From assembly GCA_007182875.1 (NCBI GenBank), contig AP019514.1:2046001-2110000 (forward strand): DNA of 64,000 nt, read 5' to 3'. Positions 6,136 to 18,100 of this stretch are shown here, one piece after another (position 1 is the stretch's first letter; each line of letters opens with the position of its first letter). Made by a program: the position numbers and the translations under genes. A model generated the notes under the pieces. The model was not told where the DNA came from and searched no databases. It saw nothing but the letters and a program-made list of their open reading frames with translations. The DNA comes from Vreelandella sulfidaeris. GTDB taxonomy: Bacteria; Pseudomonadota; Gammaproteobacteria; Pseudomonadales; Halomonadaceae.

Positions 6136-6481
6136 GTTTACGAATAAACTTGGGCTAAAGCCAATCCAAGACGGCACTTGTTTTAGCATTTCATAAATGT
6201 AGGACCATACAAAGTACTTAATCACATAAAATTTAGAACCTTAGGTGGCAATACGCCTGTTAAGTAGTTTTTGTGGAAATTAAGCGCTTTGTGTGGAAGC
6301 ACACAGGCTCGATACCTTCGCTGTTTCGGATTCCCTGGGTTCGCTTAATATATATTATGTTAAATAAGATAATAATTAAACTATGTGATTGTAATTGTTC
6401 AACGAAAATCTGTGATGGCGTTGGACACTAGTCTCCCTTCTCCTTATCATTCCCCACCTATTTCCAAGGATATCTCTCGTT
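6136..6481. other. Intergenic spacer before the lipoprotein/7TM/ligase operon
   Basis: 346 bp, AT-rich, no gene seen. It holds the right copy of the 14-bp repeat (6209-6222) and a pair of short GTGGAA repeats near 6272-6298. The promoter of the downstream operon is expected here; TATATATTATGTTAAAT around 6350 is a rich candidate for a -10 region but I cannot fix it. Confidence 0.4.
6209..6222. repeat. 14-bp direct repeat, right copy
   Basis: Identical to 2356-2369 (ACAAAGTACTTAAT), same orientation. Downstream of both copies there is also a similar GGC(A..)GCAATACGC motif (about 2430-2445 and 6247-6257), so the similarity may extend beyond the exact 14 bases. Confidence 0.5.
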
Positions 6482-8874: not shown

Positions 8875-9867
8875 GCTGGTTGAAAAACTGGACCTGGCCA
8901 ACGCGCTTGCGCGATAAGGGCATCATCGGCATGAACCGGCGTAATATTCGCTATATTGGACGCTATAATAAACGCCGCCTTTACCCTTTAGTGGATGACA
9001 AACTTAAAACCAAGCTGCTGGCCCAGCAGTATGGGATAACGTCGCCAGAATTGATCGGCACCGTGACAACGCAGTTCGGGGTTAAACACATTGGGGCAAT
9101 GCTCACTGGCCACGCGGGTTTTGTGATTAAGCCTGCCAAGGGGAGCGGTGGTAAGGGCATTTTGGTGATTGAAAAGGTGGAAGATAATGCCTTTATCAAG
9201 CCCAGTGGCGCCAAGCTAACGCTTCCCGATATTGAGCGACACGTATCGAATATCCTTTCGGGCCTCTATTCGTTGGGCGGCTCGCCCGATGTCGCAGTGA
9301 TTGAAACGCTGATTAATTTCGATGAAAGCCTGATGGATTACACCTATGAAGGGGTTCCTGATATTCGGGTTATCGTCTTCAAAGGGTATCCCGTCATGGC
9401 CATGATGCGTCTTTCCACCGCTGCCTCTGACGGCAAGGCCAACTTGCACCAAGGCGCGGTAGGTGGGCTTAAACATTGCGACAGGTGCTGCGCTGCGCGC
9501 CGTTCAGTTTGACCGGCCCTGCTTTAGCCACCCTGATACCGGACACGACCTAGCAAGCCTGGTAGTGCCGCAGTGGGAAACGCTGCTCAACTTGGCTGCG
9601 GGCTGTTACGAGATGACTGGCCTGGGTTATCTCGGTACCGATATGGTGTTGGATCGCAAGTATGGTCCGATGCTGCTTGAGCTCAACGCACGCCCAGGCC
9701 TCGCCATTCAAATGACCAATGGTGAAGGCCTCCGTCGGCGCCTTGACCTCATTGAACGACAGCCAGATGGCGTACCGCCAAAACAGCGTGTCGCTTTCGC
9801 CCAGCACCATTTTGCTCGGCAAAGTGAGTTGGTAGAAAACCCTGACACCACCTCTGCCAACGCGTAG
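8871..9867 (+). CDS. Alpha-L-glutamate ligase-like ATP-grasp protein, frameshifted
   Basis: ATP-grasp enzyme of the RimK-like/sugar-transfer-associated family, about 331 residues. The start overlaps the stop of the 7TM gene. ATP-grasp landmarks are GFVIKPAKGSGGKGILVI (glycine-rich loop with the nucleotide Lys), FRVIVF-like IRVIVFKGYPVMAMMRLS, and GTDMVLDRKYGPMLLELNARPGLAIQ (metal-binding Glu/Asn). A net two-base loss near 9467 breaks the GAVGVG motif. It presumably ligates an amino acid to an unknown acceptor, in concert with the membrane protein and the protease-like lipoprotein. Confidence 0.85.
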
Positions 9868-9920
9868 ACTGATGTTTGCAAAAACGAGAGCCCAGGCTAA
9901 CAACGTTCAACGAGTTGCCC

Positions 9921-10360
9921 ATGACCCAAGCGAATACCCTCTTGCAGCAGGCGGAGTCTCAGTGTCACATCCGCGGCGTTCGTTTTACCCCCATTCGCCG
10001 ACGCGTGTTAGAGCTGATTGCCGAAAATGGTGGCGGGCTGAAGGCGTATGATCTGCTGGATAAGCTGTCGACCGAACACGCAGCCGCTCGGCCCCCGACG
10101 GTTTATCGAGCACTCGAATTCTTAATCGATCAAGGCTTGGTACATCGTATTGAGTCGCAGAACTCCTATGTAGCCTGTGCTTGTCCTGAGCATGCGCATG
10201 GTTTTCAGCTGCTTATTTGCCGTCATTGCGGTTATGTAGAAGAGCTGCATTTGGATGAGATCAGTGATCAGTTGGCGGCACTGGCAAAAGCCAAGGGTTT
10301 AACGTTGAACGCCAAACCATCGAGCTTCAAGGCCTTTGCCAGGATTGTCGAGCAGGCTAA
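9921..10360 (+). CDS. zur: Fur-family zinc uptake regulator Zur, C-terminal frameshift
   Basis: Zinc-responsive repressor. The start MTQANTLLQQAES at 9921 is preferred over an upstream in-frame codon because Zur proteins begin there. The winged helix spans about residues 18-85 (TPIRRRVLELIAE, PPTVYRALEFLIDQGLVHRIES). The regulatory part has CACPEHAHGFQLLICRHCGYVEE with a first CxxC zinc pair. As written the frame runs to a stop at 10376, but adding one A to the AAA run near 10317 restores KTIELQGLCQDCRAG and a stop at 10360, giving the second structural CxxC. I therefore call the shorter, restored end. It lies just after the ATP-grasp operon and before hisI. Confidence 0.85.
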
Positions 10361-10388
10361 ATTGCCAACCAGCTAGCGAGTAAATTGT

Positions 10389-10865
10389 ATGTCCCGGTTT
10401 GACCAAGTAGCTCCAGACGCCCTATTTAAGCAGCTTGAACGTGCCACCCCGGAAGATAACCTGCCTAATGTCGCAACCCTGCTTGCGGCCGTACGTTTTA
10501 ATGCCGATGGCTTGATCCCTGCGATTGCCCAGCAGCACGATTCAAAAGAAGTGTTGATGATGGCGTGGATGAATCGTCAAGCGCTGGATGAAACGTTAGC
10601 CACGCAGCGTGTTTGTTACTACTCACGTTCGCGGGGAAAGCTATGGCGTAAAGGCGAGTCATCGGGTCAGCAGCAGCAACTCGTTTCCGCCGCGCTTGAT
10701 TGCGATGGCGACACGTTACTGCTGCAAGTCGAACAAACGGGCCCCGCTTGTCACACCGGGCGTCGTAGCTGTTTTTATATTGGTGTGGATCAAGAGCAGG
10801 CATCAATTACCAGTACGCCGCTGATCGATCCCGATGAACTCTACGGCAACAAAGCCTCGTCCTAG
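10389..10865 (+). CDS. hisI: Phosphoribosyl-AMP cyclohydrolase
   Basis: Opens the purine ring of phosphoribosyl-AMP in histidine synthesis; cytoplasmic, Zn/Mg dependent. Intact, 158 residues. Signature segments are VLMMAWMNRQALDETL, YYSRSRGKLWRKGESSG, DCDGDTLLLQVEQTGPACHTG and RRSCFY, including the metal-binding DxDxD-like and Cys residues. The N-terminal 35 residues extend beyond the shortest family members. No HisE domain follows, so this is a stand-alone enzyme. It lies away from other his genes, between zur and yidD. Confidence 0.93.
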   Translation: MSRFDQVAPDALFKQLERATPEDNLPNVATLLAAVRFNADGLIPAIAQQHDSKEVLMMAWMNRQALDETLATQRVCYYSRSRGKLWRKGESSGQQQQLVSAALDCDGDTLLLQVEQTGPACHTGRRSCFYIGVDQEQASITSTPLIDPDELYGNKASS

Positions 10866-10866
10866 C

Positions 10867-11255
10867 ATGAAACGCTTAAGCATGCGGCGCTGGCTATCAA
10901 TACTGCAAGCCCGCTCGCGATGGGTACTAACGAAAGTGATGATCGGCGGCGTAAAAATCTATCAATATACGCTCAGCCCACTGTTAGGCCCGCGCTGTCG
11001 TTTCTGGCCCAGCTGTTCGTCTTACACCATTGAAGCGATCCAGGTGCATGGACCGCTAAAGGTGGCTGGATGGCGGCGAAGCGCATCGTCAAATGCCACC
11101 CGGGCAACCCAGGTGGTATGGACCCGGTACCCGGCGGTCGAAGCGAGCAGCTTTGCCGCGAAGACGAGGATCTCCCCATCGCCCTGTTGTCGCGATCACC
11201 ATTCCCGCTAGTGTTGTTGAGCAACCTGATAAATCTTCTCAAGCATGGCATGTAA
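10867..11255 (+). CDS. yidD: Membrane protein insertion efficiency factor YidD, frameshifted
   Basis: Small amphipathic inner-membrane-associated protein that helps YidC-dependent insertion. The core [30 protein letters not shown] is interrupted by nothing, giving the diagnostic Cys-containing CRFWPSCS motif. A missing G near 11060 breaks the frame; restored, it reads [24 protein letters not shown], the usual end of the family. Beyond this the restored frame runs to 11255, overlapping the 3' end of the convergent sufE by 48 bp, whereas the unshifted frame stops at 11211. The true end is therefore uncertain. The ATG at 10867 starts right after hisI. Confidence 0.82.
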
Positions 11256-11624
11256 GCCATTGCTGCGCGTCGGCGAGAGGTGCTTGTCTAATCCCAAATC
11301 AGCCAGAAAGTGCGGTTCGGTGGCAAGGATTTCACCTGCCGTGCGGTCACTGTAGATACGCAGCAATATGGCAATCAGGCCGGACACGATAGCGGCATCG
11401 GACGTTGCTTTAAAAACCAGCTTATCGCCCTCCTCTTCACACTGCATCCAAACGTTTGACTGGCAGCCCTGAATTTTGAGCTCTTCGGTTTTCCATGCAT
11501 CGGGGAAATCAGGCAGCTGTTTGCCCATATCGATAATGTATTGATAACGGTCCATCCAGTTATCGAATATCTCAAAATCTTCGATTAGCTCTTGCTGGGC
11601 CTGTTCGGCGCCGGAAGTGCTCAT
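11208..11624 (-). CDS. sufE: SufE-like cysteine desulfuration protein
   Basis: Accepts persulfide sulfur from a cysteine desulfurase (SufS/CsdA) for Fe-S cluster or other sulfur pathways. Intact, 138 residues, family length. The catalytic cysteine is in [11 protein letters not shown] (about residue 54). Other conserved parts are [19 protein letters not shown] and [15 protein letters not shown]. No sufS, sufB or sufC gene is adjacent, so it could serve CsdA (CsdE role) instead. Convergent with yidD. Confidence 0.9.
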
Positions 11625-11684
11625 GCTATTTCCTTCTCAATTGAAATTGGCTTGTACTGGCGACTGACATTTTGAGTCATAGGA

Positions 11685-12864
11685 TTATTCACTATGCCCA
11701 TTATAACGGTTCGAAGGAGTCTTGAGGGAAGTTGCGTAGGAAACAGTCAATCGGTGGCGCTGCTGCTCGCGATGCCACTCATCGTCTTCGCTATGGAGAT
11801 AGCGTGAGGTGGTGTCGAGGCGCGCGTGTCGAGCGCTTTCGGCCAGATGGCGTAAACTAATACCTGATTGAGCCTGGTGGGTAATCGATGTATGCCGTAA
11901 CCAATGTGGTGTTGCCAATTTAAGTGCGGTCACATATTCCGGTGCGCCGTCGCTATCTTCAAGTGCTTGCGCAGCCTGCAGAAACGTAGCGCGAATAAGT
12001 CGATAAAGCTGGTTATGGCCCAGACCACGCTGACCATCCAGCGCGCGAAGCACCGGTGCTTCAGCGTCAAACTGACCAGGATATTCAGGCAATTCCAACG
12101 CATGGCGCCACTGTCGCAGACAATCAAGCATATCGTCAGGCAGCGGAATGCGTGCCGTCTTGCTGCCCTTGCCTACTACGCTCCACCACCAGCGCCCTTC
12201 GCTGCGCTGGAAATCTCCCATACGCGCATCGGCCATCTCGCTAATGCGCGGTGCCAGCAAATAGGCAAAACCAAAGATAAAGCGTCGTCGAGCATGTTCA
12301 AAACAAGCACGACTGCCCTTCCCGGGCTCTAACGGGCTATTCAACCACTCCCACAGCCACGCCCACAAATCACTTTCTAAATAGCGCTCAACGCGCGGCG
12401 TTTGATTATTTAAGCGCCGAGATTTGTCGCGCATCAAGCGAAACGGATTATGGCTAACCCACCCTGCTTCCACCAGCCAGGCAAACATACCCTGCAGGAT
12501 CACCAAGCTCTGGCGTCGGCTAGCGGGCGATAAGGGCCCACGAAACGGCCGCCATTCCGGATGTGCACGTGGCTTTGGATGGCCCCACCCATTGGTCACT
12601 GGGGTTAGGATCGGAAAGAAATAGCTCAAACCGACGCAGTGTTTCTCGATTTATATTCCTCAGCGTAAGCCCTTGGCTAGTCAGCCAGAGCAGCAGTCGC
12701 TCCGACTCGCGACGGTAGGCTTTCCAGGTTTGTGGGCTATCCACGTACTCTTCAAGCCACGCGGTCACTGCCTGGGCATCGCTTTGGGCGCTAATAAGCC
12801 CACCTCTCGGCGACTCTTGCAATATTAGTAGTTGATCAATAGGTGTAATAACTTCGTTCGCCAT
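11685..12864 (-). CDS. Tyrosine recombinase / site-specific integrase, frameshifted
   Basis: Restored protein of about 392 residues, larger than XerC/XerD (about 300). An N-terminal SAM-like core-binding domain (AWLEEYVDSPQTWKAYRRESERLLLW) is followed by the catalytic domain. All catalytic positions are visible: Arg in LAPRISEMADARMGDF, Lys in VVGKGSKTARIPLP, HxxR in PHWLRHTSITHQ, the second His in SARHARLDTT and the nucleophile Tyr in SRYLHSEDDE. One indel near 12580 joins the two frames. It is divergent from the KfrA_N gene across 267 bp that carry an inverted repeat (12951-12986). No phage genes, tRNA or relaxase are near, so it is not an obvious prophage integrase. Confidence 0.88.
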
Positions 12865-12950
12865 GCTCGCCCGTCCCTGCTCTCTTTTTTTAGCAGTCTT
12901 CTTTTAGCAGTTTGTACATTACCTGGCCTTAAGTGTGCCTTTATAGCTGT

Positions 12951-12986
12951 ATAAATTCAAGATAAGACGAGTAATCTTGAATTTAT
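12951..12986. promoter_or_regulatory. Perfect 13-bp inverted repeat with 10-bp core (possible recombination site or operator)
   Basis: Arms ATAAATTCAAGAT (12951-12963) and ATCTTGAATTTAT (12974-12986) are exact reverse complements around the core AAGACGAGTA. There is no T-run, so it is not a terminator, and it lies in the divergent promoter region between the tyrosine recombinase and the KfrA_N gene. The architecture (two 13-bp arms, short asymmetric core) resembles lox and FRT sites, whose cores are 8 bp. It could equally be an operator for the neighbouring DNA-binding protein. The match is seen; the role is inferred. Confidence 0.6.
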
Positions 12987-13009
12987 CACCGGTAGGATAA
13001 ATATAATTA

Positions 13010-13030
13010 CGTAATATGTAATACGTAATA
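13010..13030. repeat. Three tandem heptamers, YGTAATA
   Basis: CGTAATA, TGTAATA and CGTAATA follow one another without spacing at 13010-13016, 13017-13023 and 13024-13030. They lie about 100 bp before the KfrA_N start, close to the inverted repeat. Iterated short sites like this are typical operators or iterons of plasmid-type DNA-binding proteins; binding by this protein is only inferred. Confidence 0.55.
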
Positions 13031-13131
13031 ATTGCCTTTTATAGCTTAACTACCCACAATGGTGGCTTTAAAAGGGTTGCTCAAGCGCAGCAGTACAACT
13101 CGCTAGTAAGAACACAAGGAAGGAAGGCAAC

Positions 13132-14208
13132 ATGGCCCGCAGCGGCATCCAATACAGTGATGTTCAACACGCCATAGATGCGCTCTTGGAGCGTGGTGAT
13201 ACACCCAGCGTGCAGCGTATTCGTGACGTGCTGGGCACAGGCAGCTTCACGACGATTAGCGACCACTTCCGCTTATGGCGCAGCGAGCGTGAGCAAAATC
13301 GTGATGTGCCGCCGCCAAAGGGGGGTGCCCGAAGCGGTGGTGTCAATGGCCAGCGAGCTGTGGCGCGAGGCTCAGGAGGTAGCAAATCAAGCGCTGCTCC
13401 ATTATCGCGAAGATGCCAATCGCCAAGTGGAAAACGCTCAGCAGCTCGCAGAAGACGCTAAACAGCAGGCGGCAAATGCCGAGCAGCGTGAAAGCGCCCT
13501 CGCTGAGCACTTGCGTCATATGGAGCAGCGCATGGAGGCGTTAAATCGAGAATTGGCCGCTAGCCAAACCAGCGAACATCACTGGCATCAAAAAAGCCGA
13601 AGCAGCGCAAGAAGAAGTAACTCAATTGAAGCAGGTACAACAGCAGTTAGAAAGCCAGGCAGGCGAACAGCGCAAGGCACATAGCAACGCCCTCAGCGAG
13701 CAACAGGTAGCGTGGGAGCAGCGTTTAGCCCAAGAGGAGCAGCGCCATGAAGCAGCTGAAGGAAGGCTGATGGCGATGCTGGATAGCACCTCAGCAGGCA
13801 CGCGCCCAGGAAGAGAAGAATTTCCAAAAACGTCTGCAGCAGTCTGAGCAGCGTATTGAGACATTGAGTCAGGAGCTAAAGGCAAAGCAGCAGGCCCTGC
13901 ATCAACTACAGCTTGAAGCCAGTGAACGCGAGCAACAGCTAAGTGAGCAGAAGCAGCATATGACGGTATTGGAGACGCATGAGAAAGCGCTGACCCAGCA
14001 GCTAAATGAGGCTGAAGCCGCGCTAAACAGCCAAGCCCAGCAGCATGCCGAGCGCGAAGCTGCGCTACAGCAAGCGTGGCAAGAGAAGCTTTGGAGCCGC
14101 ATGGAAGCGCTGCAAACACAGCTAACGGCACTCCCCGATGCGCTTTCAAAAAGAACAGTGAGCCAGGCCAGTAATCAACCTGGAGACGAAAAAAAGCCCA
14201 GCGATTGA
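13132..14208 (+). CDS. KfrA_N-domain DNA-binding protein with long coiled coil, frameshifted
   Basis: Restored length about 358 residues. The first 60 residues match the KfrA N-terminal (plasmid replication region DNA-binding) type: GIQYSDVQHAIDALLERGDTP, SVQRIRDVLGTGSFTTISDHFRLW. The rest is an Ala/Gln/Glu-rich coiled coil with many QQL, AEQRE and QELKAKQQAL heptads, as in plasmid KfrA. Frames break near 13318, 13600 and 13805, the first in a GGGG run. Start ATG has AAGGAAGG upstream. In plasmids KfrA autoregulates and supports stability; here it is chromosomal and divergent from a tyrosine recombinase. It may control or assist that enzyme. Confidence 0.82.
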
Positions 14209-14220
14209 AGCTGGGCTTTT
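14192..14220. terminator. Bidirectional terminator between KfrA_N gene and nfuA
   Basis: AAAAGCCCAGC and GCTGGGCTTTT form a perfect 11-bp stem with a short loop (GATTGAA), with A-run on the left and T-run on the right. It overlaps the last codons of the KfrA_N gene and lies just before the nfuA stop, so it can serve both convergent transcripts. Confidence 0.85.
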
Positions 14221-14237
14221 GCCTTACCCTCGCTAAT

Positions 14238-14854
14238 TTAGCGGTAGTAGGCGTTAGTGGTATCGCTGTGATCGGTAACGTCGCGAATACCGGCAAGCTC
14301 TGGAATGCGCTCCATCAGGGTTTTCTCAACGCCATCTTTCAGGGTTAAATCAACCGCCGCGCAGCCTTGGCAACCTCCGCCAAAAGCTAAGACAGCGTAT
14401 TGCTGCTCAGTTAGCTCAACCAGTTTAATTTCGCCGCCGTGGGCCGCCAGCCCAGGATTGATCTCGCTGTAGAGCACGTAGTTAATGCGGTCCTCAAGCG
14501 GGCTATTAGCGTTTACCTTCGGCATCTTAGCGTTAGGTGCTTTGATCGTCAGTTGACCGCCCATCCGGTCTGCATTGAAGTCGACTACCGCTTCTTCCAA
14601 AAAGGCCAAACTGTTTTTGTCGAGATAGACGTTGATCTTCTCAAGTTCCAACAGCACATCCGTCGGCTCGCCGGGGCGGCAATAGGCTAGGCAAGTCTCT
14701 GCGTAAGGTGTGCCCGGCTGGGTAATAAAGATACGCACGGCGATGCCTTCAACGTTCTGCTTTTCCAGCAATTCCGCGAGGTACGCTTGGGCACTATCGG
14801 TAATATCAATACCTTGAGTATCGACATTGGTGTCTTTTCGCTAATCGTGGTCAT
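14238..14854 (-). CDS. nfuA: Fe-S biogenesis protein NfuA, frameshifted near the start
   Basis: Carrier that binds and delivers 4Fe-4S clusters. The N-terminal half is a degenerate A-type domain ([21 protein letters not shown]); the C-terminal Nfu domain has [21 protein letters not shown] with the CxxC cluster ligands. I place the start at the ATG at 14854: the first residues MTTISEK join, after removal of one base near 14830, to [20 protein letters not shown], the family's usual N-terminus. Restored length is about 205 residues. The gene is divergent from metH, a plausible common cofactor theme but not proof of joint control. Confidence 0.92.
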
Positions 14855-15147
14855 GAGGGCTGTCTTCCTCCCGTGGTAGTGGCTCGGCCACTTCACATGT
14901 CGTTTGACACCATGGTAAGCAAAACGGCGCGCTGACACAATCCCGACTGTTTTAGTCGGCTATTTTTATCATAACTTATCAAGAATACGTGTTGATTGTC
15001 TTTCTATATGCATCGTATAGCGACCTGCAGGGGCGCCTTTTGCTGTCCCTTTGTTATCATTGTGCGCCTCTTTACGACAGATGCTGCTTTTCCGACGATA
15101 ACAACATCCCCTTTGACGACTGTGACGCTGGAGAACTCCCCCCTGCC

Positions 15148-18100
15148 ATGGCTGATAGTGCTTTGACCGCAACCCTCACCCAACGCCTCGCTGACCGTAT
15201 CTTGATTCTGGATGGCGGCATGGGAACCATGCTGCAGAATGCCCAGTTGAGCGAAGAGGATTTTCGTGGCGAACGATTCAGCGACTGGCCGTCGGATCTC
15301 AAAGGCAACAACGACCTGCTTGCGCTCACCTGCCCTGATTTAGTTGCGCGTATACACCGCGACTATTTAGAGGCCGGCGCAGATATCATCGAGACCAACA
15401 CCTTTAATAGCACCCAGCTGTCGCAGTCTGATTATGGTATGGAAACGCTGGTAGTCGAACTCAACCGTGAGTCAGCGCGTCTTGCCCGTGAAGTGTGCGA
15501 TGCCGTCGCCGCCGAAACCGGCGTGCCACGCTATGTTGCTGGCGTGTTAGGCCCCACGTCGCGCACTGCTTCGCTGTCGCCGGATGTCAATGATCCCGCC
15601 AAGCGTAACGTCACCTTTGATGAGCTGCGTGAGAACTACTATGAAGCCGCCGAAGCGCTAATCGCTGGCGGCGCCGATTTGATCATGATCGAAACGATCT
15701 TCGATACGCTCAACGCCAAGGCGGCGATTTACGCCCTTGAAGAGCTGTTCGACGATCGCGGCGAGCGCTTGCCGGTCATGATCTCTGGCACGATCACCGA
15801 TGCATCGGGGCGTACGCTCTCTGGCCAAACCACCGAGGCCTTCTGGAACTCGGTGCGCCACGCTCAGCCGCTATCCGTCGGCTTGAACTGTGCCTTGGGC
15901 GCCGAAGAGCTACGCCCTTACCTCGAAGAGCTCTCCACCAAGGCCGACACCTTCGTCTCTGCGCACCCCAACGCGGGGTTACCCAACGAATTCGGTGAGT
16001 ACGACCAAACACCCGAAGAGATGTCCGACATCGTCAGCGAGTTCGCTTCAAGCGGCTTGGTCAACATTATCGGCGGTTGCTGCGGCTCCACGCCTGAGCA
16101 CATTCGCGCCATTGCCGATTCCGTGCGTGATATGGCACCGCGGGTTATTCCTGAGCGCAGCCGCGCCTGCCGCTTATCCGGGTTAGAGCCGTTCAACATT
16201 GAGGCGGATTCGCTCTTCGTTAACGTCGGTGAGCGTACCAACGTTACCGGTTCGGCGCGTTTCAAGCGCTTGATCGTAGAAGAGGACTTCACCACGGCGC
16301 TGGAAGTCGCCCTTGAGCAAGTGGAGAACGGTGCCCAGGTCATCGACATTAATATGGACGAGGGGATGCTCGAGTCCAAGGAAGCCATGGAGCGCTTTCT
16401 TAACCTGATTGCCGGTGAACCCGATATTGCGCGCGTTCCGATCATGATCGACTCCTCCAAATGGGAGATCATCGAAGCGGGGCTAAAGTGCGTTCAAGGC
16501 AAAGCGGTAGTGAACTCCATTTCACTCAAAGAAGGTGAAGCCGCCTTCCGTGAGCAGGCGACCAAATGCCGCCGCTTTGGTGCTGCCATTGTCGTCATGG
16601 CCTTTGATGAAGAAGGTCAGGCAGACACCTTCGCGCGTAAAACCGAGATTTGCCAGCGCGCCTACCGCTTGCTTGTCGATGAAATCGGCTTCCCTGCCGA
16701 AGACATCATCTTTGACCCGAATATTTTGCCATCGCCACGGGGATCGAAGAGCACAACAATTACGCGGTCGACTTTATCGAGGCGACCCAGTGGATTCGCG
16801 ACAACCTGCCCCACGCCATGGTATCTGGCGGTGTTTCCAACGTGTCGTTCTCGTTCCGTGGCAACAACCCGGTGCGCGAAGCGATTCACTCGGCGTTTCT
16901 TTATCACGCCATTCGCGCGGGCCTTACCATGGGCATCGTCAACGCGGGCCAACTCGCGGTTTATGACGATCTTCCCGCCGAGCTGCGCGAAGCCGTCGAA
17001 GACGTGGTGCTCAACCGCCGCAGCGATGGCACCGAACGATTGCTGGATATTGCCGATAAATATAAAGGCGATGGCAGCGGCGCGGCCAAGAAAGAAGACC
17101 TTGAGTGGCGCAGCTGGCCGGTCAATAAGCGTATCGAGCATGCGCTGGTGAAAGGCATTACCGCCTATATCGAAGATGATACCGAACAGGCCCGTGCCCA
17201 GGCGGAGCGCCCTATCGAAGTGATCGAAGGCCCGCTAATGGATGGCATGAACGTGGTCGGCGATCTGTTTGGTGACGGCAAGATGTTCCTGCCTCAGGTC
17301 GTCAAATCGGCGCGAGTGATGAAGCAAGCCGTTGCTTATCTCATTCCTTATATCGAAGCAGAAAAGAGCGAAGAGACCAAGGCCAAGGGCAAAATCGTCA
17401 TGGCGACGGTAAAGGCGATGTTCACGATATCGGTAAAAATATCGTGGGCGTCGTGCTGCAGTGTAATAACTACGAAGTGATCGACCTTGGTGTCATGGTC
17501 GCGGCAGATAAAATCCTGCAAGCCGCCAAAGAGCATAACGCCGATATTATCGGACTTTCCGGGCTGATCACCCCGTCGCTGGATGAAATGGTGCACGTGG
17601 CCAAAGAGATGCAGCGCCGGGGTATGGACCTCCCTTGTTAATCGGTGGTGCAACCACCTCTAAAGCGCATACTGCAGTGAAAATCGAGCCTCAGTACGAG
17701 CACCCGGTGATCTACGTTACCGATGCCTCTCGCGCGGTTGGTGTAGCGGGTAAATTACTCACGCCTGCTTTAAAAACACCCTACGTGACCGAGATCCGAG
17801 AAGAGTACGAAAAGTTCGTGAGCGTAATGCCAAGCGCCGCCCCAAAGCAGCGGATCTGGACTACACCCAAGCTCGCAAGCGTCGCTTCCGTACCGACTGG
17901 AACGCCCATACCCCAGCCGAGCCCAATATGCTGGGGCTAAAAACGTTCGATGACTACGACCTCGAAGAGTTGATCGAGCGCATCGACTGGACGCCCTTCT
18001 TTATGAGTTGGCAGCTAGCGGGCAAGTACCCCAAGATTCTTGAAGATAAGGTGGTAGGTGAAGCTGCCCGCAATCTGTTTGAAGACGCCAAGGTTATGCT

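Follow-up and report, generated by a model that had tools for sequence, protein, structure and literature searches.

A conserved dif-like site beside a tyrosine recombinase and a KfrA_N gene: a likely second resolution module at the replication terminus of Halomonadaceae

Introduction

Among the closest described systems to the locus analysed here is XerL/dif of the Legionellales, which, in the available portion of its published description, comprises a single tyrosine recombinase of about 390–400 amino acids and a site with long symmetric arms (PMC9765430). According to the same portion, XerL replaces XerCD, neither XerC nor XerD was found in XerL hosts, and in L. pneumophila the gene and the site lie more than 400 kb apart (PMC9765430). 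Dimer separation in proteobacteria lacking dif/Xer (among them Legionellales, Saccharophagus and Colwellia) had been left open by a 2009 survey, as far as its excerpted text goes (PMC2731167), and XerL resolved the Legionellales case in 2022 (PMC9765430, same portion). In XerH/difH and XerS/difSL, as outlined in the accessible sections of a review, a single recombinase replaces XerCD and its gene adjoins the site (PMC5357621). In Tn4651, excerpts of two papers give the layout as tnpS-rst-tnpT (PMC4619425, PMC7157771).

Here we describe a locus within a 64,000-nucleotide stretch of the Vreelandella sulfidaeris genome (contig AP019514.1, positions 2,046,001 to 2,110,000; ‘the window’), for which an initial annotation had proposed a lox-like inverted repeat beside an orphan tyrosine recombinase. 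Among open-licence papers we found none on a second dif site, an accessory Xer system or this module.

Results

The inverted repeat (12951–12986, plus strand) consists of two 13-nt arms (12951–12963 and 12974–12986) that are 100% complementary and spaced 10 nt apart, exactly as first annotated. It sits between the start of the recombinase gene (PF00589; 11685–12864, minus strand) on its left and the start of a gene for a KfrA_N coiled-coil DNA-binding protein (PF11740; 13132–14208, plus strand) on its right, the two being transcribed divergently. Both genes are open in relatives and frame-split in this assembly, the recombinase into ORFs 12520–12864 and 11685–12629 and the KfrA_N gene over several frames; metH-like ORFs from about position 14989 are likewise spread over several frames, with open genes in relatives. 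The assembly's low completeness score (74.6%) makes base errors likely, and the frame splits of the window's genes are probably such errors. From the ORFs of the window and of relatives, we take the next genes to be sufE, hisI, a Fur-type regulator, nfuA and the metH-like gene. By recombinase identity (90%), V. titanicae, V. glaciei and V. sedimenti rank as the closest named relatives, and gene order around the module is constant across the named relatives. A sigma-70 promoter scan gave no match.

The recombinase has the full tyrosine-recombinase residue set and belongs to a family apart from XerC/XerD; residues R206, K232, H320, R323, H346 and Y355 are identical in all 16 family enzymes aligned. 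At E <= 1e-20 a homologue was present in 243 of 275 Halomonadaceae genomes (in 236 as a single copy) and no match was found in the other 32. Together with its closeness to a canonical dif (see below), this distribution does not sustain the description of the enzyme as an orphan.

We compared the intergenic region among relatives that carry both genes. Of 100 loci scanned, 97 gave recombinase/kfrA regions (no kfrA match was found at L059, L072 and L085), leaving 96 once a duplicate of the window was removed and 77 that were distinct. With the best-scoring window in each region taken as the site (lowest score 32 bits), a site was found in all 77 of these Halomonadaceae regions. Information averaged 1.76 bits at arm positions, against 1.16 within the core and 0.46 in the flanks, and the strongly conserved unit is TTCAAGATAA-N6-TAATCTTGAA (12956–12981), with arms of 10–11 bp around a 6-bp core; the outermost bases of the repeat arms are more variable. 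The repeat is therefore better read as a dif-like site of 11 + 6 + 11 bp, ATTCAAGATAA GACGAG TAATCTTGAAT (12955–12982, plus strand; core 12966–12971), than as the lox-like site first proposed, and outgroup sites share its geometry. At arm position 1 the two sides covary, pairing in 68 of 77 regions against a shuffle maximum of 57, although this and the other shuffle tests and cross-counts reported here overstate certainty, since members of a single family are not independent samples. The inner arm positions are mostly near-invariant and thus uninformative on pairing. Adjoining the core, an asymmetry is fixed across the 77 regions (inner AA on one side, TA opposite), a feature more in keeping with a directional recombination site than with a symmetric operator. 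At a separate locus (L139, 1321–1348) one TTCATGAT arm is combined with one TTCAAGAT-type arm, perhaps an intermediate between two arm classes.

A second palindrome, ATTACGTA-ATATGTAA-TACGTAAT (13006–13029, plus strand), of the form TTACGTA...TACGTAA, lies between the dif-like site and kfrA, and is a candidate accessory site of the KfrA_N/TnpT type. In 65 of the 77 regions its start lies 25 nt from the site and in 10 the spacing is 24 nt, while its distance to the kfrA start varies from 107 to 202. Its motif words number 250, where single-base shuffles gave 30 at most, and in 50 of the 77 regions they form a palindrome whose arms measure 7 bp or more. Similar words (TTACATA/TATGTAA) lie between two genes of pWW0, and at L137 and L138 they occur with a comparable spacing. 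The pWW0 record labels these genes as a DNA-binding protein and a site-specific integrase, and we read the pair as TnpT and TnpS; PF11740 is matched by the pWW0 partner (E = 2.6e-26) and by the Halomonadaceae family protein (E = 1.8e-25). This palindrome is thus a likelier KfrA_N operator than the inverted repeat, to which that role had been assigned as the main alternative. No KfrA_N match was found near the recombinase in G321 and G855 (contig C8). In G342 a KfrA_N-like gene (C3:36441–37619), whose start carries a TTCAAGATAA-type dyad, is separated from the recombinase by about 8 kb instead of adjoining it.

The canonical XerCD dif, GGTTCGCTTAA TATATA TTATGTTAAAT, is present in the window at 6338–6365 (plus strand), 6.6 kb from the dif-like site, which places the window at the replication terminus. 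GC skew in the genome, per 20 kb, is about zero from 1.85 to 1.97 Mb, +0.046 at 2.03–2.05 Mb, +0.018 at 2.05–2.07 Mb (the stretch with the site) and -0.015 at 2.07–2.09 Mb, remaining negative on to 2.25 Mb; the change of sign falls where the dif-like site lies. Canonical dif was present in 80 of 82 genomes of the genus and in 79 of 80 from the rest of the family. Of the 72 genus genomes tabulated, 68 have the site and dif on one contig, at a median distance of 6,586 bp (61 within 6–7.1 kb, 67 below 15 kb, largest 33.9 kb), and for 69 genomes of other genera the gene-to-dif distance has a median of 6,506 bp (67 below 15 kb, largest 54.1 kb), so that the module lies within 15 kb of canonical dif in 134 of 137 genomes. 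The one genome of the 68 that disagrees in the table of site versus dif, G195, was entered there on the other strand; for this and three further near-palindromic chromosomal sites (G194, G210, G235) the cores are written on the dif strand. Outside the family, the module of G972 is located at the skew sign change, that of G330 has a dif-like match about 14 kb away in each direction, and in G768 the gene-to-dif distance is about 95 kb. The two G330 matches (C1:158085 and 187405) flank the module in opposite orientation, 29 kb apart.

The window held no further match to the arm pair with up to 3 mismatches (nor did 100 shuffles), and the genome itself holds one perfect copy when cores of 6–14 nt are allowed. 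Further copies exist in relatives: 13 of the 71 listed carry extra copies of the site, mostly on small plasmid-like contigs. Among the matches listed, 12 of these relatives have them on contigs of 4 to 86 kb and one (G204, C32:444780–444805) has its copy on a 593-kb contig, possibly chromosomal. Two named Halomonas plasmids, pH149-1 and pHAL40, carry the site outside their listed genes. Five of 14 contigs read, IMG/VR ones included, have terminal repeats, as circles do, and ten proteins scanned gave Rep3 (four), Replicase (one), KfrA_N (two), AAA_25 (one) or no domain (two). KfrA_N genes lie close to the plasmid copies at L125 (2849–3843) and L127 (2527–3865). Most relatives listed show no extra copy, yet keep the module, and no genome listed has a second copy on the contig of the first, which gives no support to the chromosomal inversion or excision module initially suggested. 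Of the 17 loci matched by the pattern in IMG/VR, most look like chance hits on contigs that are AT-rich or unrelated and were discarded on visual inspection; L102, L104, L108, L114 and L115 appear closer to the Halomonas site.

Among the matches listed, an extra core equals the core of the host chromosome in 5 of 13 genomes (G203, G217, G229, G231, G239), among them two cores that each occur in a single chromosome, and differs from it in the other 8. Agreement in 5 of 13 was reached once in 200,000 draws from all 72 chromosomal cores and 8 times in 200,000 shuffles among the 13. This comparison covers matches listed through G264, with the extra matches of G264, G269 and G270 left aside; a weak G201 match was dropped, the two copies in G239 were counted as one (the contig overlaps itself) and a repeated end copy in G203 was counted once. 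Core matching would follow from plasmid–chromosome exchange within the core or from selection for equal cores, and the eight genomes with unlike cores would fit resolution within the plasmid only. All 72 tabulated chromosomal cores end in G and many extra cores (L118–L132) end in A, a difference that might keep plasmids from recombining with the chromosome.

Close relatives of the recombinase (E <= 1e-45) were found in 25 of 369 genomes of a class-level draw, 3 of them Halomonadaceae, and in 32 of 390 of an order-level draw (G641–G1010 and 20 more), 17 of them Halomonadaceae; outside the family their spread is patchy. Defining XerD-less genomes as those without a TIGR02225 match at E <= 1e-60, an XerD-type gene was absent from 113 of the 390, and among the 15 order genomes that hold a close relative and are not Halomonadaceae, 13 were XerD-less. 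With a broader query alignment (A3, built in part from genomes of the kind compared), the recombinase family was found in 77 of 80 XerD-less order genomes (the first 80 of the 113 by handle number) versus 12 of 80 XerD-bearing ones (drawn in handle order from 259 outside the family, omitting 14, mostly of low completeness). XerD-type genes were present in all 14 Halomonadaceae tested, 12 of which also have this recombinase. Dyads of the same kind with other arms (TTCATGATTA, TTCCGATAA and TTTCCTGTAA, for example) occur at 13 of 38 loci scanned, the remainder having none or unlike palindromes, and the TTCATGAT form was found at six more loci beside related enzymes. Beside the recombinases of G300 and G321 there was no dyad of this type.

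In a tree whose rows include no XerL sequence, 70 family members separate from XerC/XerD (support 97/98), and 12 Halomonadaceae enzymes form one clade (100/100) near those of G855, G956, G972, G768, G330 and others; TnpS is a very long branch of unsure position. A role for this clade as the sole Xer enzyme is not supported: in G972 (C1:2087570–2091365) and G956 (C7:72778–76563) the clade's gene and a second family member lie within about 3 kb, in G956 with the two flanking a site and a KfrA_N-like gene, and in G855 the two are on different contigs. Since these three genomes hold two members, the clade looks like a second enzyme living beside whichever main system a lineage uses.

The fold model of the recombinase (mean pLDDT 87.3) matched the XerH–difH complex first and Cre–lox complexes next, at TM scores of about 0.5. 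A sequence search of the PDB returned 15 matches at E <= 0.001, mostly XerD, XerA, XerH and integrases; the top-ranked chain carries a ribosome-factor label.

Discussion

The repeat is very probably the recombinase's own recombination site, as the initial annotation had supposed, given its conservation in every distinct region and the plasmid copies away from both genes. We further consider it likely that site, recombinase and KfrA_N protein constitute a second resolution module at the terminus, beside XerCD/dif, that is also used by plasmids. What the sequence shows is the site, its conservation, the paired arm changes, the place at the terminus, the plasmid copies and the core matching; the mechanism we propose would build on these. 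One recombinase protomer would bind each 11-bp arm, and two sites, on sister chromosomes or plasmid copies, would synapse and exchange strands within the 6-bp core. The KfrA_N protein would bind the TTACGTA palindrome 24–25 nt away, control both genes and act as helper to the recombinase, the part that TnpT plays for TnpS in Tn4651. This would yield monomeric replicons: plasmids that bear the site and, probably, sister chromosomes. Of the two activities, the resolution of plasmid multimers is somewhat favoured, and for an additional action on the chromosome we judge the case evenly balanced. XerCD and dif are present in Halomonadaceae, so that a chromosomal role is not needed.

That chromosomal question bears on an alternative we regard as possible and less probable, namely that the module serves plasmids alone as a host-encoded multimer resolution system, its chromosomal copy being regulatory or a reservoir and its proximity to dif an inherited linkage. 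Small contigs that carry Rep3 or replicase genes along with an extra copy, in hosts already provided with XerCD/dif, would fit this, while the recurrence of the terminus position beyond the family (with a dif-like match about 14 kb away in G330, and at the skew change in G972) and the retention of the module by most listed relatives that have no extra copy argue against it. A purely regulatory repeat, through which the KfrA_N protein or the recombinase controls divergent promoters without recombination, is unlikely. Its position between two divergent genes is what an operator would have, and KfrA-type proteins are known autoregulators in the available part of one report (PMC7821693); against this, a different palindrome at fixed spacing, with counterparts near pWW0 TnpT and at L137/L138, fits the KfrA_N protein better, the site also occurs on plasmids away from both genes, its asymmetry is conserved, and among the matches listed extra cores equal host cores in 5 of 13 genomes.

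The same agreement of cores is what integration and excision would give if the repeat were an attachment site or the remnant of an integrated element, for example one exploiting Xer-type sites. This is improbable, since no integrated element bounded by two copies was seen among the genomes listed and gene order is constant in the named relatives; a phage att site was rejected because no integrated element was seen. Least probable of all is a diverged dif at which XerC and XerD themselves act: the 11 + 6 + 11 geometry is shared and XerCD are present in Halomonadaceae, but the arms differ from the XerC and XerD arms of dif, and family members in G855, G972 and G369 have such dyads next to them, in genomes where neither an XerD-type gene nor canonical dif (up to 3 mismatches) was found.

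The counts suggest that related enzymes take the place of XerCD in many families within a single order, with one branch persisting beside XerCD/dif in Halomonadaceae. Only tentatively would we go further, to two independent dimer-resolution systems side by side at the terminus in this family: one would be XerCD/dif, and the other an XerL-like recombinase that has a dif of its own and is steered by a KfrA/TnpT-type coiled-coil helper instead of FtsK. This second system would be shared with plasmids, whose cores would be exchanged with the chromosome by reversible integration. Halomonadaceae are used as laboratory and industrial hosts. The module is common to most of the family and its site is also present on some small plasmids; these sites may be a natural resolution element for Halomonas plasmids, and one cell could serve to ask why two systems share one terminus.

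Compared with known systems, the locus has features of several. The lox site of a phage plasmid has a 13 + 8 + 13 geometry; symmetric arms and the fold matches to Cre recall it, and we rejected membership on geometry, the conserved unit here being 11 + 6 + 11 and chromosomal. XerCD/dif and the plasmid cer-type sites compared with it share the 28-bp geometry, the terminus position and plasmid copies that would use the host enzyme, whereas here the arms are near-symmetric and of other sequence and the canonical dif is separate. As with XerH/difH (the first fold match) and XerS/difSL, the site adjoins the recombinase gene; in the sections of their description available, those systems occur in other bacterial groups, without XerCD. 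Like Tn4651, the locus pairs a tyrosine recombinase with a divergent KfrA_N partner, and the space separating the two genes contains both a core palindrome and an accessory one. Its recombinase lies far from TnpS in the tree, where the placement of TnpS is unsure; a profile comparison of the two gave a weak, uninformative match, and no transposase was recognised by eye beside the module among ORFs of the window from 9000 to 18000 and of five relatives. The likeness to XerL/dif, drawn from the published description in the portion available rather than from an XerL sequence, comprises a single recombinase of about 390 amino acids, long symmetric arms and an intergenic site near the skew change. 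The Halomonadaceae site is, as in the XerL system, dyad-symmetric and near the replication terminus; it differs in that its gene adjoins it, a KfrA_N partner is present, and XerCD is accompanied rather than replaced, with XerD-type genes in 14 of 14 genomes and canonical dif in 80 of 82 genus genomes.
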